Shown in pieces: positions 6,350-61,526 of a stretch of DNA of 64,000 bases. Position 1 is the stretch's first letter. The number at the start of each line of letters is the position of its first letter. The notes under the pieces were generated by a model. It saw nothing but the letters and a program-made list of their open reading frames with translations. It did not search any database and had not been told where the DNA came from. Position numbers and translations under genes: made by a program. The stretch spans positions 10,981,111-11,045,110 of the forward strand of contig NC_092576.1 of assembly GCF_037975245.1 (NCBI RefSeq), written 5' to 3'. The DNA is from Apostichopus japonicus. Its lineage: Eukaryota > Echinodermata > Holothuroidea > Aspidochirotida > Stichopodidae.

Positions 6350-6563
6350 TCTGTGTAAAATCTCCGTTCGTCGCTGGAGTTACACTTCGAGCGTGACCGC
6401 GGAACTTCATAATGCAGTTTTGTTACACTCCGTTCGTCACCGGCGTTAAATCACCGTGCGTCGCTGTCATAACTCTCCGTTTGCCAACTCGTAGTCACCA
6501 TCGTTATCGTCGTAAATTCTACGTTCGTCATCGGCATTACACTTCGTGTGTCGCGAAGTCTAA
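6350..6563 (-). repeat. Inverted block inside the minisatellite array
   Basis: Here the units run in the opposite direction (ttacactccgttcgtcacc and aaatcaccgtgcgtcgctg, the complements of the usual motif). Read on the minus strand the block matches the forward segment at about 15400-15560. The shared landmarks, in order, are a gacgaacgtagaatttacg stretch, a gatggt stretch, ggcaaacggagag, and ggagtgtaacaaaa followed by a gatgaagtt-like stretch. Forward units resume at about 6565. Confidence 0.85.
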
Positions 6564-6815
6564 CGCCAGTGATGCAAGAAGAATCTCCGCCGGAAATAGT
6601 TGAAGTGCAACGCCACTGACGGAGATTCACGCCAGCGACGCACAGAGACATGTGGAAGGTTTACGCCGGTGACGCATGGAAGGTTACGCTCACGGGGAGT
6701 TAACGTCGGTTGGGGTCAAAGTGTAACGCAAAAACCTCTCGGAGAGTTTACGCCCGTCACTCAAGAAGTGTAACGCCAATGACATAAGAAGAAGTTTTGC
6801 CAGTTAAGCACATAT

Positions 6816-8430: not shown

Positions 8431-8574
8431 TTACGCCGATGACGCGCGGAGTGTAGCACCGGTGACGAACGGGGAGTTTCGCTAGTGACGCACAGGGAAG
8501 TTTCATCGGTTACGCACGAAGTGTAACACCAGTGACGAACGGAGAGATTACGCCAGTGACGCACGGAGAGTTTA

Positions 8575-14160: not shown

Positions 14161-14287
14161 GTGTAACACCAGTGACTTACGTAGAGTTTACGTCGGTTGC
14201 GTACGAAGTGTAGCGCCCAAGAAGCACGGAGAATAACTCCAGTGACTCACGGAGAATTTACGCCGGTTACTCACGAAGTGTAACGCC

Positions 14288-14510
14288 AGTGACGCACGGA
14301 GACTTTGCGCTGGTGACACACGGGGAAGCTTACCGATTACGGACAAATTGTTACGCGGTTGACTGATGGAAGATTTACGCATGTCACGCAAGAAGTGTAA
14401 CGCCAATGACGCACGGGAAAGTTTCATCGGTTACGCATGAAGTGATACGCCAGTGATTAATGGATACTTTACGTCGAGTATGCATAAATTGTAACGCCAG
14501 TGACGCACGG
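14288..14510 (+). repeat. Array segment duplicated from about 7388-7600
   Basis: Both segments run through the same rare variants in the same order (gcgctggtgac, ggggaagcttaccgatta, tgttacgcg.ttgact, gtcacgcaagaagtgt, gggaaagtttcatcggttac, gtatgcataaattgtaac). The offset is about 6900 bp, bracketing the homogenised core. This fits an old array split by later expansion of its middle. Confidence 0.7.
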
Positions 14511-23029: not shown

Positions 23030-23950
23030 GCCGCTCTACAGACCTTGCTCTTATAGACACCATGGACAAACTCAACAAAGTTCCATTCTTGGACGCCTTC
23101 TCTTCATCATGTATATTAATGACTTAACTTATGTATCTAAGAATGTCTAACTTGTCTTCTTTACTGACGACACAAATATCTTCTTTAGTGAATCGAACCC
23201 ACATCGCCTGGAGGAGCTGGTGTGTAGTGTAGTTAAGCTATATTTTGATTGGTTTGCTATTAATAAACTCTCACCAAATGTGGCAAATAAAGCTATATGG
23301 TCTTCAATGACCTGACCAGCCGGAGTAGTTTTGAGTTTAATATATCCATTTATGGTAACTTGCTGATAATGTACAATTCATCGGTGTCTATATTGATTCT
23401 AAGCTATCGTGGAGCGATCATATTTGTAATGTTGCATCTCAGACTGATAAAGTCGTTGGTATACTAGAAAGGCTGAAGAATTTGCTCCCTAGAAATGCTC
23501 TGCGTACAATCTATCTTACTTTCATCTACCCCTACCTCAGCTACTGTATGGTTATTTGGTCTAGTGCTAGTAGATCCCAACTGCACAGGCTTAATATTCT
23601 TCAAAAGCGTGCTATTAGACACATCACTTGTTTCAAACAACGTGACCATACAAATCATTTATTCAAGTCACTGAACCTACTGAAACTTACTAACATAACG
23701 AACACCAGTATTGCTACTTTCACCCACCGATCCCTTCACGACCATTTTCAATGATTACTTCTCAAACTACCTATCACACAACTTCTTAACCCATGACCAC
23801 AATACTCGACAGTCTACATTCCTGCATCAAGACATCATCCAGACTTCTTCACTATGTTACAATCTTTGAAACCGTGCAATCAGGCTCTGGAATTCCCTTC
23901 CTTATTATGTAACCGCTAATCCAAGCATTCATTACTTTTGAAAAACGGTG
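23030..23950 (+). mobile_element. Degenerate LINE (non-LTR retrotransposon) reverse-transcriptase remnant
   Basis: Translated in shifting frames, the interval shows the hallmarks of a LINE RT and its C-terminal extension. These are an IYINDLTYVS-like segment, FTDDTN at the place of the catalytic F/YADD, and WFAINKLSPN. They are followed by FIGVYIDSKLSW, LRTIYLTFIYPYLSYC and RLNILQKRAIRHI. Stops and frameshifts interrupt it (for example a TAA just before the catalytic motif), so it is dead. Only the 3' half is present. The longest open piece is 23482-23754. The order of motifs fits Jockey/CR1/RTE-like LINEs; the exact clade is not determined. Confidence 0.85.
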
Positions 23951-32669: not shown

Positions 32670-32670
32670 C

Positions 32671-33008
32671 TACAAACCTTCTACTGCTACGTGGTGTGTC
32701 ACAGCTGTTGTCAGGTTCCTTCTGCATTCGTATACACCTTCGTGGGAGATATTCACTGATACAATTAGTAGAGAATAATTTCCAGAGAGCATTATACTGT
32801 CACCATATTGTACTTGCATCAAGTATGGACCAAAGTAAAGAATTTTATCATTGAGGTTCCACTGATTACTAATTCCAAATCCATGGCAACCACTCAATAT
32901 AATTCGGTCTGCAACAGATACAGAATGAAATATTTCTTCACCGGAATTCAGATGCAGTGCATACCACAAAATCAAGAAATAAAACTTCGAAGACATTTTA
33001 GTATGCAC
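32671..33008 (-). CDS. Ig-superfamily gene, first exon (signal peptide + V-type Ig domain), minus strand
   Basis: The minus-strand exon starts at ATG 33008 or, more likely, at the in-frame ATG 32996. It encodes a hydrophobic signal peptide (FYFLILWYALHL) and one Ig V-like domain. Both canonical cysteines are present: LSGCHGF, then NQW for the core Trp, and the HEGVYECRRN motif for the second Cys. Several N-glycosylation sequons are present. After VAVEG comes a GTTTGT donor in phase 1, so more exons should follow at lower coordinates; none was identified. The motif SLLIVSVNISHEGVYEC parallels GSLIVTNVTVQHDRVFS in Ig1 of the neighbouring plus-strand gene, so the two are paralogues placed head-to-head. 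It may be a full receptor, a secreted protein or a solitary leftover exon. Confidence 0.7.
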
Positions 33009-33384: not shown

Positions 33385-33433
33385 ATGCTGCATAAACAAT
33401 TTTTGGCATTCATTATGCTTTCGCTTTGTTATG
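33385..33433 (+). CDS. Ig receptor exon 1: signal peptide
   Basis: ATG at 33385 begins MLHKQFLAFIMLSLCY, a short basic start with a hydrophobic core typical of a signal peptide, and the exon ends in phase 1 at a strong donor (G|GTGAGT). Phase 1 is the usual phase for joining to Ig exons. Confidence 0.75.
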
Positions 33434-36400
33434 GTGAGTATTAAACTTCAACATTCATTACTATTGTTGCACAATATCAGCAAGAGTACCATATTTTGCG
33501 CATAATGTTCTGGTCATATTTATGTTAAATGGCGTGAAGAAACGCATAATTACCCAGATCATTGAACTATATTATCTATAAATCTCATTTAATACTGATA
33601 TTTTTAAAGCGTTACCGTTTTAAATAATGGCCATGTCATGGTCAATAAATGTTATCATTTCACAATGTCATCTATTAGAATGTTTGTAAACAAAGCTGGG
33701 CACCACTGTGTTAGTAAGACAGCGAATTCCGAAAATACACCAAAGACGACGTACTTTGCTGTTTTAGCCAAGCTCAGCATCAAACTGCACTGCAAAGAAG
33801 GGTTTTTACACTGATCGGTTGTAGGGTTGCCTTTCCATACATTTAAGCCTATCACTGTACATCTTATTGAAATTGCAGCCATGAGTTGTAGCCATGAATA
33901 AACCAGCAAGCACAAGTAACGAGAGTTGTACTGCTACTTTTTCGAGTTACCTAAGGAGTAAAAAATAACTAATTTTTCATTTTTTAGGAACAAATTCTTT
34001 AAAAAATGTGTTCGATACTTATTTTACTACAAGTTCATTAAAATACGTGAAAAAGGGATGCATTATGTGATTTTTGTTTCTAAGAGTCGCATGGCACCAT
34101 TTGACGAATCCGTACGCGTTTAGAAAGATAAAACACAACTTTTCCTATGTAGGATACATCAAGGCATCCTTAGCGTTGCACAATGCCCTCACTGTGGCAA
34201 GTTTAAATTTGTACTAATTAGCTTACATACAGAATATTTTCACATCTCTATCATGGAAAGATGTTCTTGCAGCGGTGAGAATGGATTAATCCGGAGATTG
34301 TTGTTGGATAGTTTTTTGCTGTGAATTAGTTTTTTGCTGCTTGAGTTCATAAGTGGTGTTACGTTCCGTTGAGCGGATCACGTGATTAGAAGTACAATTT
34401 CGCGAGAAAACGTTGTTTGCTGGATCCATTTTCGTATAGAGTAACTATAATATATGTTTCAATGATATTGATCACATATTTGTAATGCCGACCTCATTTT
34501 CGGTTTGGCCCTAATTATTAATTTTGTGTTTTTGCTATATCGTCTTCATATGATGAAGTAGACCTAAACTAACAGTTATCAATTACGTGTATGAATTAAC
34601 TATGGTAACTAAACTATCGTTGCCTTTGGTCAAGGGCAAATATCATCTAGAGTATGCAGCCTTAAAGAGTAGCTTGCATGTATAGTAAGCCATGTATAAT
34701 CTCGAGAACTAAAGCTTGAGCATAATTCACATATGGTATTTGGATGTACCACATTGCTTACAATACGCATATTTTCTTTATGCAAATGTACCTGATTGAG
34801 TTTGAAAACACATTTCTAGTTCTGATGACGAGTTATAACAGTAAGTTAGAAAAGAGAGAGTTATGTCGAAAATGTTTTACTGCTGGGATCAGTAGGAAAT
34901 AAGATGAAACATGCATTATATTGTATTTTTATTCTTTAAAATACAGAGGTGGGGAATTCCTTTGACCCATGTAAGGATCTACAATACCTAGAGATGTATG
35001 AAACTGGTATCATACAATGTTCTTTTGATGACGGTTTCGTGGGAATCCAATGGTACGATTCTACAAAAGAAGGGACAACGCCAATCATCACCTTCGTGAG
35101 ATCACTTAAAAGTGGACGTGGATACATGTCTGGTGATTATGATATATTTCCAAATGGTTCACTGATCGTCACAAACGTAACAGTTCAGCATGACAGAGTT
35201 TTCAGTGTCGTGTTGGCTGCTTCAGAGGAAAGCTCTGTCACCCAGTATACCATACGGGTTGAAACAGTTGGTAAGAATTGATAAAGTTTTTTGTATAGTT
35301 AAACATTCTTTATGGACTTAAGAAAGGTGGAACGTTTCAGCTGATGACTATAGCTAAAGTAACGGCATAATCCCGAGCAAACATATTAATGTTTTTAGCT
35401 GTCAGTAGAGTGTGAGGATGGTGACAATTATTTTATCCAAGTATGAGCTCAGTAGGCAATATTGTATGATGTTGAAAAATAGTTCAATCAATAGATTGTT
35501 ATTGTTTTAAAATACCGATTTATTGATTAATAATTTAATCTGAGAAAGGTTATGTGATCTCACTGAAGTATTTCATCATATACTAACCAATCAAATGATA
35601 TCATAATAATAATTCGATTGCTGCTTTCTGGTAGCGTTCTACTATTGCAAGAAAGTGCGTCTAAGTCAGTTATTGTCCGTATGGTATGAATCATTTTCTA
35701 AACAATTGCTGCCATGGTTCGACGAGGCATTTTACGAAAATAACAGAAACACAAAAGTGCCAAACAAAGGCTCATAAGATAACATCTCCAAACTACTTTC
35801 GATTTTTATTGGGCAAGAGTGCGTGCCATCATGTGATGTAGTGACGACGTAATTATTACTAATAAAGTATATTAGACGTATCGTCAAAGTCTACAGAATG
35901 TCTGCTAATATATGCCTAACATAGTTATCTCTCAAGACATGACCTCAAGATATCACTTTTCTTTCTGACAATTGCTGATACTTTCCATCAATCTCATTAC
36001 ATTCCACCCGGATAGTAATTGACAATTACATATTGGTATTGTAAATTGCCGTATAGAAGAGGTTACACGTTACCTCTCGTTTATTGTCCGAGGTAGAGGT
36101 ATATAGGGCTGGGCTAGATGATGTCGTTTTACATATTAGCTCTGTAAATCGACGCATAAAGGACAGCTGGAATTCACGTAACATCTTCTTCGTTGGTCGA
36201 GCTATAGAGAGGGGTTAAGCCAGAGGACACTTGCTTTTGAAATATTATAGTACAGCGTAGAACGTTTGGCTTATAATTTACGGGGGAAATTATTGCGGGT
36301 ATTCGTGCAAAGGGAAATGTTAAAGATAAGTTTAGCTGTAGTGCCAATGCGCTTGAAGGATCTACACTGAAAAAATAAACTAGTCAATATTGCCACGGAC

Positions 36401-39400
36401 TAACGTTGAATTAGCCTGTAACGTTAGTCAATTCACACGGACTAGCAAAAATCTTCGTTTCATCGCTGCTTCTTAGTCAGTTTACACTGACTAAGGAAAA
36501 TATAATCGCAGCTGAGTCGGTGGCGACGGACTAAAGTACTTTAACCCATGGACTAAGAACGATACGGACACCCGATTTACGCCATAATCGTATCTTAGTC
36601 GGTGTCGACGGACTAATGTATTTTAACCCACTTCGATTCACTTCAATTTGGAAACCGAGAGGCAACGGCAGCTTGCTGGACTTGGCATAGTTTCATACGA
36701 TCACTCTAAGCAACTTTCAACCGTAAATCACCCAAGAAGTCTTTAGAAGAATGGAAGTATTAACTGCCATCATCGGCCTACCTGTTATTCCTTTAACTTG
36801 AAGGTAAAATTAAAGTTAATTGTTAGGCCACTGGCACTAGTACTGTATTATGGTTAGTGTAACGCTACCGTTGTCACGCTGGCGTTTCGCAATACACAAG
36901 TGCAATGACAGTGAGTAGCCTATAGGCTTCTACAGTGCATTCTTAACACTAAAGTGTGCATTCTAAACACCAATTAACAATGTGTTATGTGTGTATTGGG
37001 CTAGATTGAACAGTGGCACATAATCTTCTAATTTATTCCCAAACAAATGCTGGAACTATAAGTCTCAATAGTATATTTGAAGTCTACACTCATTTGGTAA
37101 AGATTTCCTGTAATTTCCCATGTGAATCTAAATGGGTAGGCTTTGTGATATTGAATAAGCAAGGCTAGACCTTCAAACGTACAGTCACAGTAGGCTGAAC
37201 AAATTATGTTGGCTAGTCAACGGTATTATATGTTGCGAGCAGTCAGGATGCACGCTTCAGTTCTATTTAACCTTTTCATTTATCATTTTTTAGTATTTAA
37301 TTTCCGGTCACGCCCAGGAAACAATTGCGACATTCCTTCACGGTCGACTTGTTTACTGTAAGAAGTATTAACCGTTTTTTTCTCAGGAAAGCTTGATAGT
37401 CTGAAGTTATTATAACATGTGCTTTTAGTATACTGCAAAAAGAGTAAGTTGTTGTATCTGTATTGATATTTTATGTAGAAGTAACGGAAAATTTAGTATG
37501 TTTAGTTTGGTCTAATTGCACGTTTTTTTTTTCTGTCCAATGTAGTGCAGGGTTCACTTGCGCGAATTCAAACTATTCTGTTTATGTATATGTATATGCA
37601 TCGATTCGTAGATTATGATGTTTTTTGACATTTATTTGTAATTCAAGCATATCTGTTTAGTAGCAAAGTTTAAAGGTTAAGATTAATTAGTTTCTCTTTT
37701 TGATCCTAGATTGAATGAAACTCATTGACGTAAATAATAGATCAGATGATACAGTTTAACGCTGTTGCTAAAACTTTGGGTATTCTCTAGTCTTCGCCGG
37801 TCCATTATGTACTTTAGTACTACTAGTAAGACTAAATCAAAACGACCGAAAAACAAACTTAGTGTAAGAAAGTACTGATTCTCCTCTAGCCTAGGTCTAA
37901 ACAAGCTTGTTATGTGAGCAAGCAAAATAACAACTAAAAACGATTAGGCCTATAAATAAGTTGGCTCAGTGCATTTCTGTTTCTAAAATTTTATATTTTT
38001 AAAGATCATAAAAACAAACAAAGATTTAGCCCATGTTTTATTATCTCTGTATTCTGGGCATTTGATTCTGGTTGCAATGGTGATGACACTCTCGTTCAAA
38101 TTTTCAGCTTTATACAGTCTGCTTCAAACTTTGGGATTGTTTTTTGAGACTATGGTGGAAGCAAATCTCACATAACTTTGTGGTGACAACTTTATTTAAT
38201 TTTTTTTTCAAATGATGAATACTTTGCTGTTTCTTTTTTCCAGCAGGAATTGAAAAGCCAAATATCTAAGTCGAGGGTGAGGTTTCCTGTGATGTACGGC
38301 ACCAGTGTGGCGGCAACAACAGAAGAGGAGAACTGTGTTATATATGGCTTAAAGACATGTTTTAAGGTGATATATTGGTACCCTTCGCAGAACAAAAGAG
38401 TTTATCCAAGAGTCCAAAAAGCAAAGGAACAAGTACCATAGAGAAAAAAGATGGAAGAGTGAGTTTAACTATTGTACCCAACTGTTTAATGATATTAAAG
38501 ATACTTTTCATAACCTGTTTAAAAAAAAAAACAGTCTAGTATATCATTTACGTGCAAGCTTCATAAGTTTGGTCAAATTTTCACTGATCTGAAGAGCGGG
38601 AGTCCAGAGGGTTTGGTTAGCTGGGAAGGTAACCAATTGCCTGGTACATCACAATGTTCACAATGCATTCCTGTATATGAAACCTGACGACTGGCAAACC
38701 GACTGTGGTGGATGTGGCTGGGAGAGCAATTTTAAAGTCACCTAATAGCTAACCTAGATCAGCTTTCATGGTAACCACATCAAAGTAAGAAAAATGTGTC
38801 AGGTATGGCCCCAAGAGCAACAAATGGCCATCGCCAGTAATTATTGGTGGTGGGGTACCCCTGCCAGTGATCAACAATTGACCCCTCACGGCTGAACTAG
38901 GTCAGCTCATGAGGTAACGACTTGAAACCTACTGGAAAATGATGGTTAGGACTTCAGATACAAGGGATGGGCATTGCCAGTAATTTTTATTGGTGGGGTA
39001 CCCCTGCCAGTAGACCCCCAATATGCCCATCCCCTCATTGACCTAGGTGAGCTCATGATTTGACCAGTTGAAACCTACAGGAAATGTGCTATATCTGTAT
39101 CTGTGCTTACACGTATATCATATTTTCTGTTCACAGGTCAATAATGGTGCAGATTTTGGCTTCCTAAAGACAAGTGAGAGGCCATTTGTAGTTAAGAGAA
39201 ACACTCTTTGTTCGTGAAGACTTAACTGGTGTCGATTTGGGGTACCACTTTAAAACGAAAGTCATGAGGAACCCTTGCCCGAGATTCAACTTTGCATTAT
39301 TGTGCAGTGCTATACTTTTGCGATTCATGTTTGATCTATTAACTTGTCTTAACCTCGTTGGAATAAAATCATATTTTCAGATTTTTGTTTACAGTGATTT

Positions 39401-42400
39401 CTTCTCTATCTGTCGAAAGTCAGCCTTTGTAGACATCAGAAGTTATATCAGAAATAAATACTGCCAACGTACACATTATTTGTGTTTCTTCTGCTCTCTT
39501 TTCTTTCAGTGATGCTAGTCAGTGAAACTAGTCGGGTTTAATTCTTTCAGTGATTCTAGTCAGTGCAACTAGGCAGTCGATACCGACTAAGAAATGTTAG
39601 TCGGGAGAGGCACCATCCTGACTAATGTAAAAACCTGCTATAAACTAGTCGGTGGCTCATATAAATTAGTCGGTAAAGACCGACTAATGTCACCAACTAA
39701 TGTAACTGACTAATTTACATTTACCGATTAAGAAATTGTTGATCGACTAAGCTGACGGACTAAGATGACCGACTAAGAAATCCAACTGACTAAGGAATAA
39801 ATTAGTCGGTATAGCAACGAACTAAGGCTATGTTAGTCGGGAGAGGCACCAGATGGACTAACGTTATGTTAGTCGGTGAACCAATTTAAGTTTTCAGTGA
39901 TAAGCATGCCTCAAATTTGCTAAAGTCACTACCAACGGCATATTAATCAATATCAAACAAATAATATAAATATGGATGACTTATTTGTAACAATATTACA
40001 ACTTGATCATAATCGTAGGAAGGGACACAAATATCATGTTTTGTTTCAACAAAAGCTGCCAACGTTCACCTTTGAACACTCTGAGCTTATTGGTTCCACT
40101 TTATTGGAAGGGTGCGATTTAGGTTTGAGATTTTCGTCATACTGCTATTACGATATAAATATTGATGAAATAATTCTTATAATGCAAAGAATATTGATAA
40201 CAAAATATGTATTGGTTATACGGTATGTCACTTTGTAGATTTGGTGTAAGTTTTCCCCTCTCTTTTCGTCGATAATGAAATATGTCATGGAGTGAAAGAT
40301 AGACATTGACTAAATAGCAAAATCAAAACGGTTGAAAATGATATTCTCTGTTCATTTTACACATGCGGTGCTGGTTTGTGGGCTTCTCCGGGAATTATTA
40401 TCTAATAAAGCTGAAAATATTTCTTTCTGCGGCTGCATGTTTACGTTTAAGTTTGTTTCTTGCTATCGACATAATTAATGTATTACCATTTCAAATAAAT
40501 ATTGCCTCTTCGCAAGCAAACATAGCATGTCGATCAAGATACATATGACTTTTAATTTCACATTTATTGTTTCCAACAGTAACTCAACATTTGTACCCAA
40601 CTATTGAACAATGCCACGAAGAGAGTAATATGTGTTACTCAGTAGACTACCCGCCATCATTGAATTGCTTTATACGAAATGTACGACCAGAAGCATTGTT
40701 GACATGGAGTCAGCGTATGGTAGATTATGATAGTATATTGAAATCTGAGCTTATAGTTACACCAGGAAAGCAAAACACATTCACGTCTCATGCAAGCGTA
40801 AACCTCACAAAGAGCAAACCGCTACTGTCAGTCTATACATGCAAACTGACCAGAGAAGTATTTCATGTGGCGGAATATGAAGCTTTCATAATCGTAGAAA
40901 ACACAAAATTTAATCTACATAGGCAACCAATTAAATTCAATGCTGAGCTCCATTCCACGCTGGTTCTACCTTGTACTGCATTTAAAGCAGACGTTATTGT
41001 ATGGAAACGATCAGTTTTTGCCGGCACAGCTCCTCAAGTCATTATTGTTAGTGTTAAAAATTGGAAAGATGATCGTAATATAACGTACAACGAAGACTTT
41101 ACACTAGGTACAGACGGGTCATTGATTTTGGAACGTACTGATTGGCACCACTCGGGGATATATACTTGTGTCGCCACCAACTACAATTTAGCGGATTTCC
41201 AGATCATCGATGTTATGATATTCGGTGGGTATTTAAGCCTTTGGCAGTTAGTATATAATAATATTATCACTATTATAGTGTTATAATTATCGTTGTAACA
41301 ATAAAACAAGGAATTATATAGTGATAATGATTAACGTACTTTTCAAAATTACGTGTATAAGGTCATGAAACAACCGGAGTTGATATGCCTGCTTCAGCAT
41401 TTATCAGAGCCAAATAATACAAAACAGACGGAATCAGAAAAGTGATATTGATACAAGACGGTTACGGATATAAATACCATGCATAAATATGTGATAACAC
41501 TAGTTGTAATTTGTTGTCTCATTTTGATTACATTTGTCTGTGTTAATCACTGGACATTGTGAACGTTCCCTGAAATTATATCAGCAAGGTTAATGAGGCA
41601 CGAAGGAATTGCTGTCAGTATATTAATATATATTTTGGATAATTTTGTCATATTAGTTAATGTATGAGTACCGTACTATTGGGATTTAAGTAACACTTTA
41701 AATAACATCAGACTTCCAACGATAATTATCACATGCTACAATTATGAGTATACATATATTTACGTTATCAGGAAAATGTGAGAAAAAGCTTATAAGAAAA
41801 AGCTATCATAATATACTGACGTCAACTCTTTCATGCCTCATTTACCGTGCTGCTGATATGGTTTCAGGGAACGCATGGACTTCTGAATAAATCTACAATA
41901 AATATTCTTCGAAGCATATATAATATGTCTAAAACATTATTAATAATTAACACATAGAGGGATATAACGTGCTAGTCAAACTATAATTTTTGTTTTATAT
42001 GTATTGTTTACTTTTTTTTAAATAGTATCTCCAAGTCCGCCATATTTAACCATAGAAGGATGTAATTATCAACAATACTGCGTGCTGGAAGTCGAAAAGG
42101 AAGGAAACATCACCTGCTCAGTTTATGGGATACGACCGGAGGTAGAGCTTCAGTGGAGTTATTATTCTCAAGATACTGATGGACTGGTTATCAAAGGAGA
42201 ACAACGCAAGTCAACCCAAAATGCGAATACCTTTGACATATCTCTCACTACGAACTTCATATTTTCCTCCACATTCAAAGGGAGAATTACAATAGAGTGT
42301 ATCACCGTTGGAAAATATTCTGATTTATTTCCATTCGCGACCAAACTAGATCTGTTAGCAATTTATGGTAAATGTCTATTACATTTTCAAAATAAACACT

Positions 42401-45400
42401 TGTCGTTTGCTTTTATTTTATTCATTCACATATATATATGTACAATCTGCACTAAACAACGGAACCTTTTTACGCTATAAACAACCATGAAAATGGTACA
42501 TAATTACTATTACTTCGGTTACACATTACGTTAATGTATTAATGACGAAAGATCTAATCATGACGTGAGTTTTGTCATGACCGGGAATACCATATACCTA
42601 TAAAACGTTTCCATTCGGACCTGGCAATATATTCATTGATATTATATTATAATTATTGGAAACCAGTTTTTCTTTATTGAACAGTTTGTCTACCTCTGAA
42701 TGTTATAGCGTTCATTAATCGCAAAATATCATGCAATTCCAACGTTTATTATTTTCGTGCAGGTGATGAAAATGGTTTTGACTTGAAGCACCCAAGTACC
42801 ATCTGGATAATTGCAGGTTCCGTAATTACAATACTCGTTCTCTTTGGCATATTAACCTTCTTGTGTAGAGGTAGGTGTTTTCATATTTTTTAGCTTTATT
42901 GTACTTCAGGCACTCTAGACATTTCATAGAACGATGCACACATACAAATAAAGGTACTGCATTAGAAAGAAGTTGAAATTTCAGCCTCTCTGAGAGCTTC
43001 TTTAGCAACGCTAGACTGTGATATCCAAAATAAACACTTGAACACAAAGAAAATGAGACGGTAGATATTTAATAATAGTGACATGATAAAATATGTGACA
43101 AATAAAAGCTCTGTATAAGTTAAATTAATGATGCGGAGAATCACTGCTTTCATTCTTTAAACTTGGTGATTCAGTTCATTAGTGCATATACATAAACATC
43201 ATGTTTAAATGTAATTCTTGTGAAGCTAGCAGTATTACGTAAACACATCGGTTCATTATAAGACTAGATATGAATATATAAATATATATATATAAAATTC
43301 CAGTTGTGTGATTATTTTTGTAATTTAAATTCGAGTTTTCAACCAGCGTGTACCTATATTTGTTTCTAGTTACAATGAGATCAAGACGAAAAAAGAAAAA
43401 TGACAATCAACGAACAGAAGAGGTACTGTATCGTTACCGTCTTTCATCCTCATAAAGATGATGATGATGATGGTGGTGGTGGTGGTGGTGGTGGTGGTGG
43501 TGGTGGTGGTGGTGGTGGTGGTGGTGGTGGTGGTAGTAGTGTTGGTGGTGGTGACTAACTCTTCCAACCCTGTAGAAATGAAACTCATGCTCGCTATATT
43601 TTAACGTTCTCTGTAATCGTTGTAATAACCAAATCTACTTCAACCATATTTAAAATCATATTTAAAATCTTCCTCCTCTTCAGCAAATCACCTCTAACAG
43701 CCACAACATTCTCCTCACTTCAGACAGACTCCAACGAGCCGTCCCTGAAAAACCCACCATCGCCTACAGACGACCACGCAACCAACGAGACCTTCCTTTG
43801 CGTGCTGCTGTTCCACCTCTAACTTCTTACCCTACACCCATTTAGCATGGAACTTTCAAATGTGATCGTACTTCGAGATTCATCGTCTGCAGCCACCACA
43901 TTGTTGAATCCAATTCCATCACCAGCCACAGCATGCAACTCAAACACAAAACTAACGGTCACACCGCTTGCACAACCAATAATGTCATCTATCTGATCTC
44001 TTGTAGAGTTTTCAGCATCCAATATGTTGGCAAAACCAAAACCACCTTCAAGAAGCGATTCTATGGTCACAGATCCGCAGTCAACACCATGAAGACTAAG
44101 ACCCCAGTTGGAGAATACTTTAACTTTCCCAACCATATCATTAGCGACATGTCCCTACAGGGGATTGGATCCTTAGGTAGCCGTCCTGACCTAGTACGAA
44201 TCAGCAGAGTGAGGCTGTGGATGCAACGCCTTCGCATCATTCAACCTCATGGGCTCAACATTCAAAAAGGACTACTCCTTCTCCCCTCTTCTCATAGCTC
44301 TCTTCCACCCTTTTTTCTCCACACCTTTTTGTCTTTGTCCTTTTCCAGTTTATTCCCTACCCATTCCCGCAATCTTCTCTTGTCCCTCCACTGTTTATCT
44401 CCTTCCCCTTCTCTTCCCCTGTTGGTTTCTTTCTTTCTTCTCTCCATCCCTTGTCTACTAATACCCTTACATCTATATCTTTGTGTTCACCATGCTCATT
44501 AAACTGTCTGTATTCTGTGCGTGTTTTTGTCCCTTCTGTCCCTTATGTTACTGTTACTTGTCATTTAGCCTCTGAAATAGATCCTGCTAGGATTGCAACA
44601 CACATTTAAAATTTAATAAAGATACCGTTTTTGATAGTTTCATTACTAAACATATTTCTTTTGAGAATGGTTCTCTTTATTGATTCAGTGTAATAATTAT
44701 CAAAACAAGTTTTGGTCACAAATGTAACTTGAGATCATCCAAAAGAAATGTTAGCAATGTTGGAACTTGATTCGTGGCCGATGACATTAATTTCAGTTAA
44801 CAGATTTCCAACTAATAACATTGAGGGTATCAAAAATATAATTTACAGTACACTTGGATTGACAAAAAAATATCAAAATATTAGTCAGTGTTTAATAGTT
44901 CGGCTATTGTATTGTTAGAAAGCATTATGTTAAACATAACTAATGATACATTATTTTGATAATAAATCTCTTTATTTTGTCTTTCTTTTAGAATATGCAG
45001 ATGATGGATTCTGTAAAAGGTAGATAAACAATACTAAAAGCGTAAATTCCACGACGGGAAAGACGTCGTTTATTAAAGCGTTTTAACGTTCATTTTGATC
45101 ATATTGAAACATGAATCTTTTCGCAGCCAAAATTCACATTTTGTCTATAGCCATATATCATTTCACATGCTCCATAAAAGTGTGAAAGAGACAAAATTGT
45201 GGTAGGATGGAATGTGACAGCATTTACTCAGAGACAAAACATTTTAATGTGACCAGCCTTCAATCTATCCATTCTTTTCTTTCTGATGTGTTTTATTTGA
45301 GACGATACTTCCAAGGTTGCTAATATAGATAACGAAACGCAAATCTGCTTTCAAACGCAAATCTGCTTTAGAGGTGGACAGAACGGTGTTTACATAGACA

Positions 45401-48400
45401 TGATTTCATGTATTTATTCATCCATCCACGTTCATTATTTTATTTATACTATACTGCTATTATCGAAAAGAGACGTGTTCATTGCTGGTTGAAGATAAAC
45501 CGGTACTGAATGAATTCAGCAAAAGGCAATGTGACTGTTGTAGATATCATTTAGTTTAAGTAAATTCACTAGAAATCCACGTAGCCATTTTACTCTTATA
45601 TATAATGATTTTTAATGTCCATAGACATTACAACTCAGACCCTATTCATATATTTAACTAAATATAATGAAGAGAGATACTGCTAACGAACTATTCATCT
45701 TCTACATAAAAACATATAGGTAAAAGTATCAGTTTGTAAAAGAATAAATTTAAGCAAGTTACTCATTTTAACTATATCACCCGGACGATTTATTCTAGCA
45801 ACAGCAACATCAAGAGGGTCTAAGAAAGTTGAAGACGTCATAGACGCAGAAAAGGTAATAAGCTTTATCCACCTGTCTGTATTCTGTGCGTGTTTTTGTC
45901 CCTTCTGTTACTGTTACTTGTCATTTAGCCTCTGAAATAGATCCTGCTAGGATCAAAACGTCAGACCAACTTACCTTTACACATATTTAAAATTTAATAA
46001 AGAAACCGTTTTTTATAGTTTCATTACTAAACATATTTCTTTTGAAAATGGTTCCCCCTAATTGATTCAGTGTAATGATTATCACAACAAGTTTTGGTCA
46101 CAAATGTAACTTGAGATCATCTAAATGAAATGTTAGCAATGTTGGAACTTGATTCGTGGCCGATGACATTAATTTCAGTTGACAGATTTCCAACTAATAA
46201 CATTGAGGGTATCAAAAATATAATTTACAGTACACTTGGATTGACAAAAAAAATTCAAAATATTAGTCAGTGTGTAATAGTTCGGCTATTGTATTGTTAG
46301 AAAGCATTATGTTAAATATTTCTAATGATACATTATTTTGATAATAATTCTCTTTATTTTGTCTTTCTTTTAGAATATGCAGATGATGGATTCTGTAAAA
46401 GGTAGATAAACAATACTAAAAGCGTAAATTCCACGACGGGAAAGACGTCGTTTATTAAAGCCTTTTAACGTTCATTTTGATCATATTGAAACATGAATCT
46501 TTTCGCAGCCAAAATTCACATTTTGTCTATAGCCATATATCATTTCACATGCTCCATAAAAGTGTGAAAGAGACAAAATTGTGGTAGGATGGAATGTGAC
46601 AGCATTTACTCAGACACAGAACATTTTAATGTGACCAGCCTTCAATCTATCCATTCTTTTCTTTCTGATGTGTTTTATTTGAGACGATACTTCCAAGGTT
46701 GCTAATATAGATAACGAAACGCAAATCTACTTTCAAACGCAAATCTGCTTCAGAATTGGACAGAACGGTGTTTACATAGACATGATTTCATGTTTTTATT
46801 AATCCATCCAGGTTCACTATTTTATTTATACTACACTGCTATTATCGAAAGGAGACGTGTTCATTGCTGGTTGAAGATAAACCGGTACTGAATGAATTCA
46901 TCAAAAGGCAATGTGACTGTTGTAGATATCATTTAGTTTAAGTAAATTCACTAGAAATCCACGTAGCCATATTACTCTTATATATAATGATTTTTAATGT
47001 CCATAGACATTACAACTCAGACCCTATTCATATATTTAACTAAATGTAATGAAGAGAGATACTGCTAACGAACTATTCATCTTCTACATTAAAAACATAT
47101 AGGTAAAAGTATCAGTTTGTAAAAGAATAAATTTAAGCAAGTTACTCATTTTAACTATATCACCCGGACGATTTATTCTAGCAACAGCAACATCAAGAGG
47201 GTCTAAGAAAGTTGAAGACGTCATAGACGCAGAAAAGGTAATAAGCTTTATCCACCTGTCTGTATTCTGTGCGTGTTTTTGTCCCTTCTGTTACTGTTAC
47301 TTGTCATTTAGCCTCTGAAATAGATCCTGCTAGGATCAAAACGTCAGACCAACTTACCTTTACACATATTTAAAATTTAATAAAGAAACCGTTTTTGATA
47401 GTTTCATTACTAAACATATTTCTTTTGAGAATGGTTCCCCCTAATTGATTCAGTGTAATGATTATCACAACAAGTTTTGGTCACAAATGTAACTTGAGAT
47501 CATCTAAATGAAATGTTAGCAATGTCGGAACTTGATTCGTGGCCGATGACATTAATTTCAGTTAACAGATTTCCAACTAATAACATTGAGGGTATCAAAA
47601 ATATAATTTACAGTACACTTGGATTGACAAAAAAAAATATCAAAATATTAGTCAGTGTGTAATAGTTCGGCTATTGTATTGTTAGAAAGCATTATGTTAA
47701 ATATTTCTAATGATACATTATTTTGATAATAATTCTCTTTATTTTGTCTTTCTTTTAGAATATGCAGATGATGGATTCTGTAAAAGGTAGATAAACAATA
47801 CTAAAAGCGTAAATTCCACGACGGGAAAGACGTCGTTTATTAAAGCGTTTTAACGTTCATTTTGATCATATTGAAACATGAATCTTTTCGCAGCCAAAAT
47901 TCACATTTTGTCTATAGCCATATATCATTTCACATGCTCCATAAAAGTGTGAAAGAGACAAAATTGTGGTAGGATGGAATGTGACAGCATTTACTCAGAC
48001 ACAGAACATTTTAATGTGACCAGCCTTCAATCTATCCATTCTTTTCTTTCTGATGTGTTTTATTTGAGACGATACTTCCAAGGTTGCTAATATAGATAAC
48101 GAAACGCAAATCTACTTTCAAACGCAAATCTGCTTTAGAGGTGGACAGAACGGTGTTTACATAGACATGATTTCATTTATTTATTCATCCATCCACGTTC
48201 ATTATTTTATTTATACTATACTGCTATTATCGAAAAGAGACGTGTTCATTGCTGGATGAAGATAAACCGGTACTGAATGAATTCAGCAAAAAAGCAATAT
48301 GAATGTTGCAGATATCATTTAGTTTAAGTACATTCACTAGAAATCCACGTAGCCATATTACTCTTATATATAATGATTTTTAATGTCCATAGACATTACA

Positions 48401-51400
48401 ACTCAGACCCTATTCATATATTTAACTAAATATAGTGAAGAGAGATACTGCTAACGAACTGTTCATCTTCTACGAAAAAAAAAACATATGCAGGTTAAAG
48501 TAATAGTTTGTAAAAGAATCAATTTAAGCAAGTTACTCATTTTAACTATATCACCCGGACGATTTATTCTAGCAACAGCAACATCAAGAGGGTCTAAGAA
48601 AGTTGAAGACGTCATAGACGCAGAAGAGGTAATAAGCTTTATCCACCTGTCTGTATTCTGTGCGTGTTTTTGTCCCTTCTGTTACTGTTACTTAATTTAG
48701 CCTTTGAAATAGATCCTGCTGGGATCGAAACGTCAGGCCAACTTACTTTTACACATATTTAAAATTTAATAAAGAAACCGTTTTTGATAGTTTCATTATT
48801 AAACATATTTCTTTTGAGAATGATTCTCTTTATTAATTCAGTGAGATAATTATCAAAACAAGTTTTGGTCACAAATGTAACTTAAGATCATCTAAATGAA
48901 ATGTTAGCAATGTTAGAACCTGATTCGTGGCCGATGACATTAATTTCAGTTAACCGATTTCCAACTAATAACATTGAGGGTATCAAAAATATAATTTACA
49001 GTACACTTGAATTGACAAAGAAAATATCAAAATATTAGTCAGTGTGTAATAGTTCGGCTATTGTATTGTTAGAAAGCATAATATTTAACATTTCTAATGA
49101 TACATTATTTTGATAATAATTCTCTTCATTTTGTCTTTCTTTTAGAATATGCAGATGACGGATTCTGCAAAAGGTAGATAAACAATACTTAAATCGGAAA
49201 TTACACGACGGGGAAGACGTCGTTTATTAAAGCGTTTTGATCATATTGAAACATGAATCTTTTCGCAGCCAAAATTCACATTTTGTCTATAGCCATATAT
49301 CATTTCACATGCTCCATAAAAGTGTGAAAGAGACAAAATTGTGGTAGGATGGAATGTGACAGCATTTACTCAGAGACAAACACTTTTAATGTGACCAGCC
49401 TTCAATCTATTTTTTTTTCTTTCTGATGTGTTTTATTTGAGACGATATGTCCAAAGTTTCTCATATAGATTACGAAAAATCTGCTTTCAAACGCAAAAAA
49501 AATATTTATACTACACTGCAATTATCGAAAAGGGACGTGTTCATTGCTGGATGTAGATAAATCGGTACATAATGAATTCAGCAAAAAGCATTGTGACTGT
49601 TGTAGATATCAATTAGTTAAGTAAACTCACTAGAAATCCACGTATCAATATTACTTGTATATTATCATTTTTATTGTCCATAAACATTACAACTCAAACC
49701 CCGTTTCATATATTTAACTAAATATAATGAAGAGAGATACTGCTAACGAACTGTTCATCTTCTACGAAAAAAAATATGTAGGTAAAAGTATCAGTTTGTA
49801 AAAGAATAAATTTAAGCAAGTTACTTATTAACTATATCACCCGGACGATTTATTCTAGCAACAACAACATCAAGAGGGTCTAAGAAAGTTGAAGACGTCA
49901 TAGACGCAGAAGAGGTAATAAGCTTTTTCCATTATAAAGATATATATTTTATACTTTGTTGCATTTTTAGCTGATTTGTGATGTCTGATAAAGTATACTT
50001 ATGTTAACAATGCATAGGATACCCTTCCTAACACAAATTATTCATGAGCTATAACCTGTGTAATTATTTGAAGTTTATTGCTTGAATTTTCAAATGCAAA
50101 TCTTTGACACTGTTGTCTTACGTCATCATTTATCAGCGGATTTTGGCGGAGTTAGAGTAACAGATAACTGTAAAATATAAGTTGCGTTATCAGGCCAGTA
50201 TGGAAACACATAATATTGTTTAACACTTTTTTAAACTTTGAATGGATGATCATTCAGTACAAAGAATAAAATTAAGTAAGTCCCTTTTTTCCTGTATTTG
50301 CCTTTGAATGACCAGATGTCAACTGAAAAGATCAAAGAAACATATTTCGCGAGTTTATCAAAAGTTTAAGCACCCTGTAACATATTGTACCTATTGTCCT
50401 ATATAACAACAGCCTCTAGCGTGCCTTCTTCTATATATATCTGGAGCTATGTCATTATATGTGTTTGTTCTTTTGTATTAGTATCAGAAAGTATTTATTA
50501 ATAAACTCTTAATCATTGATTAGTATTCATACAACTTTATAAACAGTGAATGTCATTGATCGCGCATTGTCCAATGCTATAATTGCGTAACGATTAAACA
50601 CGCATCTTGCCGTTCTTTATTTAGATAGTTCCTATGTTGGAGTCTGAGTCTAGAGGTAGGTGAAGTAGGCTTGTTACTTCTTAAAGGTTAAACCTCCAGC
50701 AAACGAATGGGAACTATCAACGTCATAATAAAATCAATTATCTGCTCAATTATCTGTGGGGAAAAAAAGCGGAACGTCAGCGGCACATTACAGCTTACAG
50801 AAAGGTTATTCTGTTCGCCTAAAATTCATAAAACGTATCTGGAACGGCAGTAAATGTTGGATAATCCTTTGAGATTGGTTCCTTGCTATGTTTGTTCGCA
50901 AAACTAACCCTAACACCATGTGTCCATTAATACCACCGTCAGCTACCACCCTTCTCTCGGCGTCCATTAAACTCGTATTAAATATATGGAAACGTATCTT
51001 TAATGTCGCAGCCACTTACGGTTCTTGTAAAATCAATTCTTGTGAAATAATGGTAAATGTTGGTTGCACAACAAAAGCTTTTATCAATTTGTCATTTCGT
51101 AAGATTATCACGTTAACTGCAACTGCCTATGAACGTATGAACTCATATTTTATCCAATAATCTACCGAAATATTTAAGCTTCGCGTGGGCTATTCAAAAG
51201 TGAATTATACACCTGGACGAGTAGTACTTGCAGCTATGTTTAGAACCAAGCTCGCTAAATCTTAAATCGGCGGTGGTCTTCTACAAATTTTACATAATTT
51301 ATTGAATGTTTTAATTTGTTATTGCCCCTTGTATCCTGCTGTAACCACCAATAATGAACACACAAAAGTAATAAACAGGGAAAACCAATAACTGGTGAGG

Positions 51401-52762
51401 CACGTAGGTTTTAAATAAGCTGTAAGGGGAACAAATGTAAAACAAATCTGCAGAAATGTATGCACACCGAGGATGCGAAAGGTTTGGTTGTCATCCTCTG
51501 ATAGTATGTCATTGGGGTTTCGTTTCGTTTCCCTAATTTGTTTAACTCCTGCATGATGAATTAAAGGTAGTATACATTACATCGCCACATATGCAGTTAT
51601 TTAATACCTGATTTGATAACATGTTGACCGGAAGCTATTTAACTTTTGGGTGGGGTTGGGGGCGGTTGAACTACTTTGTTGTGATGTTTTGGCATGTCAG
51701 TGTTCGATGTTACTTGCAGTTCCTGCAAATTATTATAGGTAAAGTATTCAAATTCCATCTTGAAACTTCGTATTGACTACCATACTCTCACAACCACTGG
51801 CATTCTCCCTTAAGCGTTTAGTTTATTCAGTATTTCCATGGCTTAATATTGTATTCTTCCATTAGTTGGGAAACTAAGGCGGTATTCAAACTTAATAATG
51901 TGTTGACGCTCACTAACGAGACAACGAAATAACTGGTTATCTGAGATATTATGGATAGGACAATCGCTGTGTGTTTCCTGCTCCTCATTCATATTCTGCC
52001 CCCTCCCTCGTCAATATAACAATATTAGAGAGGTTAAAGGTACATTGTTCCATATTTAATTATTTCTTCCCGTTTACAAATCAACAATGGCCGAATTTAT
52101 GTGTAGCCGTCCTTTTCATTAATTTGAGGTTATTATTAAATAAAATTACTACATGCCAGGTAAAAAAATATACGAATTCATCTAAAATTATGTTGAAGTA
52201 GTTTAAAACTTTACGGCTTGTTTTTATCTTCACAGACAGTGATATTAAATACAACGATGAAGAAGTCCATAAACGTCATGAAGAGCTTAAGAAAAGCATT
52301 GAAGCAGTAGAAGCTAATACTGTCATCGCTGAAAAACTATGGAAGGAAAAGAAACGTTCTCTAGTACAGTGTCGTGAAGATGTTTATGCAAAGATTAACA
52401 AAGACACGATGGAACTGATACAAAGAGTAGAAAGAGAAAAACATGACTTGATGAAAAAAGTGGATGATAAAGAATCATCTGATATAACTAGATCTGTTAG
52501 AGAAAGGAAAAATATTAACGTTCTAAAATTCGAAGTGGAGCAATTGAAGAACAAAAATTATACTTCGGCTGTCTCCCTTGATGATACACTACAAGAACTT
52601 AGGAATATAACCAAAGGAATAGATAGAATCAAAGACATTCAGTTAGAGCTCGATCATCAAAAGGAAACATTAAAGCAGAACGCGGATGATTTATTATATC
52701 GAAAAATACCTAATGATGGAAGCTTCTGTAGTATAAAGATTAATACTCCGGTAGGCGAGTGA
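33385..52762 (+). CDS. Transmembrane Ig receptor with tandem-repeat tail and TRIM-like coiled coil (gene model)
   Basis: Model: 33385-33433, 34947-35270, 40580-41224, 42026-42367, 42763-42870, 43370-43422, four exon pairs (44992-45019/45799-45854; 46374-46401/47182-47237; 47759-47786/48573-48628; 49146-49173/49859-49914), 50625-50655, 52236-52762. All introns are GT-AG and phases match throughout. The total is 2415 nt, 805 codons including TGA. It encodes signal peptide, Ig1 (V-like), Ig2 (C-like), Ig3 (V-like), Ig4 (C-like), one transmembrane helix, a basic stop-transfer, four 28-residue modules, a short linker and ~175 residues of coiled coil like that of the adjacent B-box genes. Type I membrane protein, probably recognising an extracellular ligand; the signalling role is inferred. 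Confidence is high to 43422, good for the repeated pairs (phase and conservation), and moderate for the last two exons. An alternative end is the TGA at 50661-50663 if the 50656 donor is not used. Confidence 0.65.
34947..35270 (+). CDS. Ig receptor exon 2: Ig1, V-like domain lacking the second canonical cysteine
   Basis: Symmetric phase 1-1 exon of 324 nt with acceptor aaaatacag and donor G|GTAAGA. The first core Cys (IIQCSF) and Trp (GIQWYD) are present, as is the strand NGSLIVTNVTV. Where a V domain normally has D.G.Y.C the protein reads DRVFSVVLAA, so the second disulphide cysteine is replaced by Val. There is another Cys near the start (FDPCKD). It may fold without the core disulphide. 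Confidence 0.8.
36365..39899. mobile_element. CACTA/EnSpm-like non-autonomous DNA transposon, 3.5 kb
   Basis: It begins CACTGAAAAAATAAACTAG and ends with the complement of CACTGAAAACTTAAATTGG. Both ends carry dense subterminal motifs TTAGTCGG/CCGACTAA in both orientations (left about 36383-36628, right about 39525-39880). CACTR termini with arrays of short subterminal repeats are the signature of CACTA elements. Flanking bases are cta on the left and ata on the right, so a target duplication is imperfect. No transposase is recognised; a 63-codon frame at 38250-38441 is unassigned. An internal duplication lies at 38824-39083. The element sits in the 5.3-kb intron between Ig1 and Ig2-Ig3 of the receptor gene. 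Confidence 0.7.
38824..39083 (+). repeat. Internal ~130-150-bp direct repeat of the CACTA-like element
   Basis: Two copies share gccagtaat.tttattggtgg, ggggtacccctgccagt, gacctaggt/gaactaggt, gagctcatga and gaaacctac.ggaaa blocks. They start near 38826 and 38972. Confidence 0.7.
40580..41224 (+). CDS. Ig receptor exon 3: Ig2 (C-like) plus Ig3 (V/I-like) in one exon
   Basis: A 645-nt, phase 1-1 exon (acceptor tttccaacag, donor G|GTGGGT). Ig2 has the core SLNCFIRNVRPEALLTW and SVYTCKLTRE, plus an extra cysteine pair near its start (IEQC and NMCYS). Ig3 has STLVLPCTAF, VIVWKRS and SGIYTCVATN, a textbook core. Two Ig domains in a single exon differ from the one-domain-per-exon pattern on either side, pointing to loss of an intron between them. 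Confidence 0.88.
41561..41876. mobile_element. Inverted-repeat (MITE-like or foldback) element of about 315 bp
   Basis: The left arm from 41561 (cgttccctgaaa, atatcagca, aatgaggca, gtcagtatatta) is repeated in complement at 41809-41876 with about 80% identity by eye. Arms are roughly 65 bp and the centre is AT-rich. It lies in the intron between the Ig3 and Ig4 exons. No coding capacity; superfamily not determined. Confidence 0.75.
42026..42367 (+). CDS. Ig receptor exon 4: Ig4, C-like domain
   Basis: 342 nt, phase 1-1. The core NITCSVYGIRPEVELQW resembles Ig2 (FIRNVRPEALLTW), including the additional cysteine pair (IEGCNYQQYC). The second core Cys is in TIECITVG. The similarity to Ig2 and of Ig3 to Ig1 suggests a V-C pair was duplicated. 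Confidence 0.85.
42763..42870 (+). CDS. Ig receptor exon 5: transmembrane segment
   Basis: 108 nt, phase 1-1, acceptor ttttcgtgcag, donor G|GTAGGT. It encodes a short stalk (DENGFDLKHPS) and a single hydrophobic helix (IWIIAGSVITILVLFGILTF) followed by LCR. The frame joins cleanly to Ig4 and to the basic exon that follows. Confidence 0.85.
43370..43422 (+). CDS. Ig receptor exon 6: basic juxtamembrane tail
   Basis: 53 nt, enters in phase 1 and leaves in phase 0 (GAG|GTACTG). It encodes TMRSRRKKKNDNQRTEE, a stop-transfer cluster just after the transmembrane helix, which fixes a type I topology. The switch to phase 0 matches the start of the repeated exon pairs. Confidence 0.75.
43457..43553. 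repeat. (GAT)n/(TGG)n trinucleotide microsatellite
   Basis: Five GAT units, then about 30 TGG/GGT units with one GTAGTAGTGTT interruption near the end. It is intronic, directly 3' of the juxtamembrane exon and 5' of the Penelope-like fragment. Confidence 0.95.
43690..44640 (+). mobile_element. 3' part of a Penelope-like element (GIY-YIG endonuclease)
   Basis: The translated frame gives the linker typical of Penelope-like elements (IAYRRPRNQRDLPLRA, then HGTFKCD) and a GIY-YIG endonuclease: NVIYLISC, QYVGKTK, KKRFYGHRSAV, TPVGEYF and RLRIIQPHGLN. The longest open part is 43933-44502. One in-frame TAG (43843-43845) breaks the linker, and the reverse transcriptase is absent, so it is a 5'-truncated, inactive copy. 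The pyrimidine-rich 3' UTR ends around 44620-44640 in an AATAAAG stretch. It lies in the intron immediately upstream of the tandem exon array, and its tail is copied in every repeat unit. Confidence 0.85.
44992..45854 (+). CDS. Tail cassette 1 (exons 44992-45019 and 45799-45854)
   Basis: 28 nt + 56 nt = 84 nt, phase 0 in and out. It reads NMQMMDSVK, then ATATSRGSKKVEDVIDAEK. Acceptors are cttttag and tttattctag, donors are GTAGAT and GTAATA. There is no tyrosine, so no ITAM/ITIM. It is rich in Met at the start, with a Gly-Ser-Lys-Lys turn and an acidic end. Confidence 0.75.
45926..45970 (+). ncRNA. Degenerate hammerhead-ribozyme-like motif in the Penelope tail (also in the other units)
   Basis: The tail reads CTGAAAT, then a perfect 5-bp stem GATCC-TGCTA-GGATC, then a GAAACGTC-like segment (AAAACGTC here; GAAACGTC in the fourth unit at about 48725), flanked by GCCT/AGRC complementarity. 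Penelope-like elements are known to carry minimal hammerhead ribozymes of the CUGANGA-stem-GAAA type. Here the CUGANGA box is altered in every unit, so cleavage activity is unlikely. Equivalent positions are about 44572-44600, 47309-47352 and 48699-48742. Confidence 0.45.
46374..47237 (+). CDS. Tail cassette 2 (exons 46374-46401 and 47182-47237)
   Basis: Sequence and splice sites are the same as in cassette 1. The 84-nt length and phase 0 borders are kept, so including or skipping it does not change the frame. Confidence 0.75.
47759..48628 (+). CDS. Tail cassette 3 (exons 47759-47786 and 48573-48628)
   Basis: Identical to cassettes 1 and 2 except that the last residue changes from Lys to Glu (AAG to GAG). 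Splice sites are intact. Confidence 0.75.
49146..49914 (+). CDS. Tail cassette 4 (exons 49146-49173 and 49859-49914)
   Basis: The most diverged copy: it reads NMQMTDSAK then ATTTSRGSKKVEDVIDAEE. It keeps both exon lengths, all four splice sites and the frame, although its introns have indels. This fits the oldest copy still being coding. Confidence 0.75.
50625..50655 (+). CDS. Candidate small linker exon of the Ig receptor
   Basis: A 31-nt segment between a pyrimidine-rich acceptor (ttctttatttag) and a good donor (AGAG|GTAGGT). In phase 0, as required after the tail cassettes, it reads IVPMLESESR and ends in phase 1. That is exactly the phase needed by the coiled-coil exon at 52236. If the donor is not used, translation stops at TGA 50661-50663, giving a shorter isoform. 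Evidence is signal and phase only. Confidence 0.45.
52236..52762 (+). CDS. Coiled-coil exon homologous to the B-box genes but lacking the B-box
   Basis: The exon follows acceptor tttatcttcacag and reads in phase 1 (G|AC AGT). About 175 residues are strongly helical and charged, and align with the coiled coils of the genes at 280-1748 and 61244-64000. For example, it has EKLWKEKKRSLVQCRE (EQLWKGKREHLARCRE in the first gene) and DDLLYRKIPNDGSFCSI (VDLLYRKIPNDRIFCSI). Homology starts right after where the B-box would end and stops within a few residues of NTPVGE, where TGA follows (52760-52762). B-box and C-terminal domain are both absent. Either it is a truncated pseudogene of the TRIM-like family or, since strand and phase fit, the terminal exon of the Ig receptor. 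Confidence 0.75.
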
Positions 52763-61224: not shown

Positions 61225-61526
61225 ACAATAATAGTTAACAGATATGAAGTCATCGAGAGATACGTTACAGTTCAAACTCTGCCTTCTTAAGGTAGCTGAT
61301 ATGTTAACAGAGAAAGGGAATGTTCAGGACCTAATTCAACTCTGTAAAGGAGATATTTCAAATAATCCGGAGCTAATTAAAGATCCCAGAGATCTATTCG
61401 TTGCTTTGCAACACAACAACCTGATCCATGAAAAAAAGGTCGACTTTCTTATTCACAAGTTAGAAAAATTGTTGCTCACGGAAGCTGTAAAAATCTTGAA
61501 AGACTACGAAAGGTCGCACCTTGATG
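61225..61526 (+). CDS. DED exon of a DED/B-box/coiled-coil gene (coding from 61244)
   Basis: An acceptor-like tttcacaacag precedes 61225, so a noncoding exon probably lies upstream. ATG 61244 starts 94 codons ending in phase 1 at G|GTAAGT. The product (QFKLCLLKVADMLTEKG, DLFVALQHNNLIHEKKVDFL, HKLEKLLLTEAVKILKDY) has the six-helix pattern and the LF.aL...nLi.e..v.fL signature of a death effector domain. The usual RxDL motif at the end is not kept (KLLLTEA). DEDs mediate homotypic assembly of caspase-8/FADD-type complexes. In this gene the domain takes the place of the RING seen in classical TRIMs. Confidence 0.75.

Follow-up and report, generated by a model that had tools for sequence, protein, structure and literature searches.

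The window is a 64,000-nucleotide stretch of contig NC_092576.1 (hereafter C16) of the holothurian Apostichopus japonicus. It contains, on the forward strand, a gene for a putative immunoglobulin (Ig) receptor whose cytoplasmic tail includes repeated exons. We read the exon model (Table 1) from the genomic sequence alone. The initial annotation had described an Ig receptor with a transmembrane (TM) helix and a stop-transfer sequence, and our model agrees: the signal peptide, Ig, and TM exons are all of phase 1-1, and the stop-transfer is basic. The third Ig domain, in exon 3, is above Pfam's cutoff (ig, E = 7.7e-5), the second has only a weak similarity to C1-set, and exon 4 has no Pfam match above the cutoff. 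On the minus strand, at 32670-33000, an open reading frame that we read by eye as an exon with a signal peptide and an Ig-like domain is oriented away from the receptor's start at 33385; the two form a head-to-head pair, less than 400 bp apart. Within the intron between Ig1 and Ig2, the region 36380-39900 has ends that are rich in GACTAA/TTAGTC and looks like an inserted element; we found no inverted repeats of 25 nt or more in 36200-40000 at the settings used.

Table 1. The receptor gene, its tandem units, and nearby features (window coordinates).
Feature	Position	Strand	Description
Exon 1	33385..33433	+	Start codon and putative signal peptide, MLHKQFLAFIMLSLCY; from sequence and phase, signal peptide by eye
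Exon 2	34947..35270	+	First Ig domain, V-set-like; phase 1-1; Pfam V-set E = 0.0044 (below Pfam's cutoff)
Exon 3	40580..41224	+	Ig domains 2 and 3 within a single exon; phase 1-1
Exon 4	42026..42367	+	Fourth Ig-type domain; about 35-54% identity to relatives
Exon 5	42763..42870	+	Predicted TM helix; hydropathy 2.66
Exon 6, juxtamembrane (JM)	43370..43422	+	VTMRSRRKKKNDNQRTEE; phase 1 to 0
3' part of an element (presumably Penelope-like)	43846..44502	+	In the intron between JM and A1; GIY-YIG domain, Pfam E = 7.7e-5
Tandem unit 1	44504..45872	+	Exon A1 44992-45019, exon B1 45799-45854
Tandem unit 2	45873..47255	+	Exon A2 46374-46401, exon B2 47182-47237
Tandem unit 3	47256..48646	+	Exon A3 47759-47786, exon B3 48573-48628
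Tandem unit 4 (most diverged)	48647..49934	+	Exon A4 49146-49173, exon B4 49859-49914
Last PM-type exon	50625..50655	+	IVPMLESESR; phase 0 to 1; donor GTAGGT
Candidate terminal exon	52236..52762	+	Putative coiled coil, kin to neighbouring B-box genes; phase-1 start; stop codon at 52760-52762

Between the juxtamembrane (JM) exon and a last small exon, which we call PM-type, lie four tandem cassettes, each with a 28-nt exon (A) and a 56-nt exon (B). All four are where the initial annotation had placed them, with AG or GT at 16/16 splice sites. Each A+B pair is 84 nt in frame (A goes from phase 0 to 1 and B from phase 1 to 0), and the frame is intact in 4/4 copies, including the diverged copy 4; together they would add 4 x 28 residues behind the TM helix. 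The encoded unit is NMQMMDSVKATATSRGSKKVEDVIDAEK in copies 1 and 2; copy 3 is the same except for a final E, and copy 4 is NMQMTDSAKATTTSRGSKKVEDVIDAEE. The A exons are 1382-1387 nt apart, and the B exons are 1383, 1391, and 1286 nt apart. Units 1-3 are 97-98% identical over 0.9 kb, which is DNA repetition far above chance. Outside the exons, divergence is 2.8-3.2% among units 1-3 and 6.8-7.3% between unit 4 (whose right end we placed 20 nt beyond B4) and units 1-3, with 13-14 indels between unit 4 and the others. The stretch from A to B has five matching pieces in the genome, all within the array (4/4 candidates were scored; the search skips very common words). As the annotation had also noted, the tail lacks tyrosine: not one occurs among the 140 residues that run from the JM exon through the last PM exon. 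This rules out tyrosine signalling by the linker tail and sets the gene apart from Ig receptors with immunoreceptor tyrosine-based activation or inhibition motifs (ITAM/ITIM), which have tyrosine signalling motifs in their tails.

The receptor belongs to a large family. For exon 3, which encodes Ig domains 2 and 3, we count at least 94 genomic matches with itself included, of which 75 are on C16; 150 of the 166 candidates were scored. One relative, at C16:31.25 Mb, continues past its Ig exons with a TM exon, a basic JM exon (VLKYRRSRRNIVEDEE), then a small exon (MLPMTETHRTP), and finally a large exon that encodes NACHT (Pfam NACHT, E = 1.5e-17). A search for NACHT exons gave at least 87 scored matches (of 579 candidates). 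We paired Ig and NACHT matches on C16 only (75/94 and 44/87 of the matches, respectively). Among the matches listed, at least 33 of the 75 Ig exons have a same-strand NACHT exon no more than 25 kb downstream, as do at least 17 of the best 20, which include the window gene. Of the other two of these 20, the one at C16:45.82 Mb does have a NACHT exon, and the one at C16:32.54 Mb has none in the stretch examined. The NACHT exon at C16:45.82 Mb is absent among the matches listed, so the pairing counts are lower bounds. We also note that another contig, C7, has many NACHT exons at 1.9-12.5 Mb, some of them up to 91% identical to that of one Ig-NACHT receptor; C7 appears only once (at 25.46 Mb) among the Ig2-3 matches.

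One member of this family appears to have been characterized. AjNLRC4 is a membrane receptor for Vibrio from A. japonicus, with extracellular Ig and intracellular NACHT; in the portion of its description available to us, location at the membrane, microbe binding, and phagocytosis are shown, and a second TM helix is predicted (PMC8699970). The primers given there match at C16:4.497 Mb (EX-F and EX-R with one mismatch each, qF and qR exactly); IN-F, IN-R, and the small interfering RNA had no match within the 4.5 kb examined at this site. The locus (C16:4.497-4.502 Mb) has a single JM exon (KIKTRIPPIGGRDPE) and a single PM exon (GFPMLPNVSP), and our JM motif also matched inside its Ig4 exon. Judging from its exons, the AjNLRC4 locus belongs to the window gene's receptor family: they share related Ig exons in the ectodomain, including the double Ig2-3 exon and Ig4, and the order of TM exon, JM exon (phase 1-0), and PM exon (phase 0-1). 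Another published Ig-TM-NACHT protein from this species is AjNLR-new, for which the available part of the report gives an extracellular NACHT and an intracellular Ig (PMC13133943).

We propose that the cassette, which the initial annotation did not recognize, is probably a copy of the pair of linker exons that lies between the membrane and NACHT in this family. By sequence and phase, 43370-43422 is the JM exon of the Ig-NACHT family, and the last small exon (IVPMLESESR) is its PM exon. Exon A has the phases of a PM exon and is similar to it in length and sequence (NMQMMDSVK beside KMPMMKTK, AIPMMSTT, and GIPMMENTN), and exon B has the phases and size of a JM exon. If the exons are compared as DNA with their flanks, then B4 scores 46 against the gene's own JM exon (19.4 ± 3.8 for 300 shuffles) and A4 scores 34 against its own PM exon (15.1 ± 2.6). 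For the exons alone, these scores are 31 (shuffles 18.9 ± 3.6, P = 0.01) and 14 (shuffles 9.6 ± 1.8, P = 0.04). The crossed pairs, with flanks, score 17, versus 15.5 ± 2.7 and 13.3 ± 2.3 for shuffles (P = 0.30 and 0.08). We also compared the cassette exons to 15 PM and 11 JM exons from the family. Exon A leans towards PM (mean z of 1.3-2.0, versus -0.6 to 0.4 for JM), and exon B with its flanks leans towards JM (mean z of 1.4-1.9, versus -0.8 for PM). Without flanks, the top scores of B include the gene's own JM exon (z = 1.1 for B1 and 3.3 for B4) and one relative (2.3 and 3.0). At the protein level, B is similar to the own JM exon (P = 0.0065). Finally, a search for a PM-type motif found one match in 14 of 16 relatives, none in the other 2, and five in the window gene. 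(This count leaves out p32751, whose NACHT is past the end of the stretch examined and for which the JM exon alone was found; p32543, where the motifs detect neither a JM nor a PM exon and the roughly 9 kb after Ig4 lack a NACHT; and a locus on C9, where about 9.6 kb contain neither an Ig4 exon nor a NACHT. The JM motif misses exons in other loci.) So, the annotation's four cassettes stand, but its tail of four copies becomes a tail of five linker pairs once the gene's own JM exon and last exon are counted. Most likely, the tail is a series of five JM-PM pairs, and later amplification produced the four A-B units.

The sequence between the JM exon and A1 suggests how the array arose. This intron contains the 3' part of an element with a GIY-YIG domain, presumably Penelope-like. 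(It adjoins a TGG microsatellite of about 28 copies at 43471-43553.) The element's 3' tail is scattered across the genome and is also present at every later unit joint: all four units start at the same word of the tail (44504, 45873, 47256, and 48647). Because the same starting word sits at each joint, the insertion of the element predates the duplications. In the order of events that we propose, an older copy of the PM and JM exon pair (A+B) would have arisen first; a Penelope-like element would then have inserted into the intron ahead of this pair; and the unit of element tail, A, and B would have been amplified to four by tandem duplication with a breakpoint in the element.

In AjNLRC4, the JM-PM pair occurs once and NACHT is intracellular, whereas the window gene has, by our reading, five pairs, and we found no NACHT match on the same strand, either within the window or in the 10 kb that follow it. 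The query that was used does detect NACHT exons of this family that are 42% and 52% identical. The window gene is probably a NACHT-less derivative of AjNLRC4-type receptors. Overall, we propose that it is such a derivative, with five tandem copies of the two-exon linker where the family has one, via a Penelope-like insertion and then amplification, and we give this reading a probability of about 0.72.

Several observations weigh against this proposal. A NACHT exon could lie more than 23 kb downstream. Splice signals add to the scores of the exons with flanks, and without flanks, B averages a z near 0 against the JM set. At the protein level, A does not reach significance in its similarity to PM exons (P = 0.08-0.16 by shuffling; the exons are short), and the similarity of B to the JM set is weaker than to the own JM exon (P = 0.04-0.12). 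This test has little power, as the control comparison of the own JM exon to the JM set gives P = 0.05-0.07. The count of PM-type motifs is post hoc because the motif was widened to CAG on account of exon A. Also, constraint on the cassette is weak. The exons differ between units at 0-4 of 84 positions (pairwise), and 4/4 variable positions alter the amino acid. In the alignment of units, about 5% of random placements give two gap-free stretches that are as unchanged as the exons plus splice sites (P about 0.05), so the intact frames are weak evidence of selection. Selection on the cassette is weakly supported, and strong purifying selection is not supported.

The tail would end either in a coiled coil or at a stop codon shortly after the last PM exon. 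The candidate terminal exon, 1.6 kb downstream of the last PM exon, has a plausible acceptor in phase 1, which matches the phase-1 donor at 50655, and 174 open codons. Its relatives, none of them more than 41% identical, are coiled-coil parts of B-box-type genes (identity to the gene at window 240-1748 is 36%), so it resembles the coiled-coil part of the TRIM-like B-box/coiled-coil genes of the neighbouring cluster. It has 28 matches, including itself: 27 are at C16:10.2-11.1 Mb and one is on C1. In TRIM and other B-box proteins, a B-box lies ahead of the coiled coil, whereas this exon has no B-box or C-terminal part in frame. Structure prediction from the single sequence gave two helices of 72 and 71 residues, with a mean predicted local distance difference test score (pLDDT) of 80 and a predicted template-modelling score (pTM) of 0.33. 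In a search of solved structures, the exon had weak matches only (best E = 0.27), and the B-box protein had weak matches to TRIM-type B-boxes (best E = 0.022). Unlike the linker tail, the candidate exon holds tyrosines. We put the odds that it is a captured terminal exon that replaces NACHT at about even or slightly better. At the end of the tail, the coiled coil would probably be a dimerization or partner-binding unit.

The B-box-type genes surround the receptor gene: a B-box gene lies at the window's start (240-1748; Pfam B-box, E = 8e-6), and on the other side are a DED exon (61244-61526; Pfam DED, E = 1.7e-7, below Pfam's cutoff) and a B-box-like exon from 62758 (by eye).

The strongest alternative, which we rate a little short of even, is that the protein stops just past the last PM exon (IVPMLESESRGR-stop) and that the 52236 frame belongs to a B-box-type gene, either degenerate or separate. 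The receptor would then be short-tailed and dead for signalling, and its cassettes would be passenger duplications, as their weak constraint might suggest. If the donor at 50655 is unused, then the last PM exon continues with GR and a TGA (50661-50663), and an AATAAA follows at 50727. Also, the Ig gene sits within a cluster of B-box genes, and there is a poor B-box-like remnant at 51922-52002 (E = 0.62 and 2.8), in a different frame from the 52236 exon. However, the 174-codon frame is open despite 41% identity or less to its relatives, and 0 of 20,000 base shuffles were open; its phase-1 acceptor fits the phase-1 donor; and a tblastn search of 49.9-52.2 kb with one DED exon (61244) and one B-box protein (240-1748) found no convincing 5' DED or B-box first exon for it. 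The fuller version of our proposal is that NACHT was swapped for the coiled coil of a neighbouring TRIM-like gene and the linker was expanded fivefold via a Penelope-like element, which would give an Ig-coiled-coil receptor on a long stalk that may differ in length from animal to animal. As a whole, we hold this only tentatively.

As to function, the tail would be a long, polar, tyrosine-free spacer, and a receptor without NACHT would be unable to signal through NACHT. Because NACHT signalling would be lost, we think that the gene most likely encodes an Ig ligand-binding decoy, or a partner or adaptor for its NACHT-bearing siblings. As the initial annotation suggested, the number of cassettes might instead be a dial that varies by animal or by splicing; it would set the receptor's reach or its number of partners. 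The phases permit this: PM exons go from phase 0 to 1 and JM exons from phase 1 back to 0, so the frame survives whatever the number of pairs; and because units 1-3 differ by only about 3%, the amplification may be young enough that copy number is still polymorphic. Yet none of the 4 variable exon positions is silent, and the junction of B and A is not an amphipathic docking helix (the hydrophobic moment is 0.09, and 4,364 of 5,000 shuffles reach at least that value, which rules out such a module), so we consider a dial unlikely.

Could A and B instead be an unrelated inserted exon pair, with no kinship to the JM and PM exons? The exons are short, protein-level scores are partly insignificant, and B without its flanks is near background against most JM exons; against this, the phases and the alternation are identical to those of JM and PM exons, the sizes are similar, and the DNA similarity follows the expected pairs, with crossed pairs near background. 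We consider an unrelated pair improbable. HiFi reads usually span 5.5 kb. That the array is an artefact of assembly, as the roughly 97% identity of units 1-3 might suggest, is very improbable, given that unit 4 differs from the other units by about 7% and 13-14 indels and that HiFi long reads underlie the assembly, according to the accessible part of its description (PMC10344927).

Ig-NACHT membrane receptors of A. japonicus are already known, from two papers of which parts were available (PMC8699970 and PMC13133943), and so is tandem exon duplication; what seems to be new is their combination, as a multiplied linker with no NACHT found. In the literature searched, as far as its accessible portions go, we found no description of a multiplied linker or of a NACHT-less relative with a coiled coil. 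As in Dscam genes, exon cassettes are arranged in a tandem array within an Ig superfamily gene, but the Dscam cassettes are 5' ones (by the title of PMC4835542), whereas those of the window gene are near-identical cytoplasmic linker exons that could all be included together.

Elsewhere in the window, about 5500-16600 is GC-rich (0.47-0.52) and holds degenerate tandem arrays with periods of 47 nt and 315-423 nt, along with numerous open frames that are about 85 codons long. An open frame at 23359-23754 looks, by eye, like the end of the reverse transcriptase of a long interspersed nuclear element (LINE).

Ig-NACHT receptors are a large family in this genome, and this locus shows a possible route for their remodelling: where phases match, linker exons are free to multiply, while the module for signalling may be lost or replaced. 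The locus is a natural test of what linker length and NACHT contribute to these receptors.

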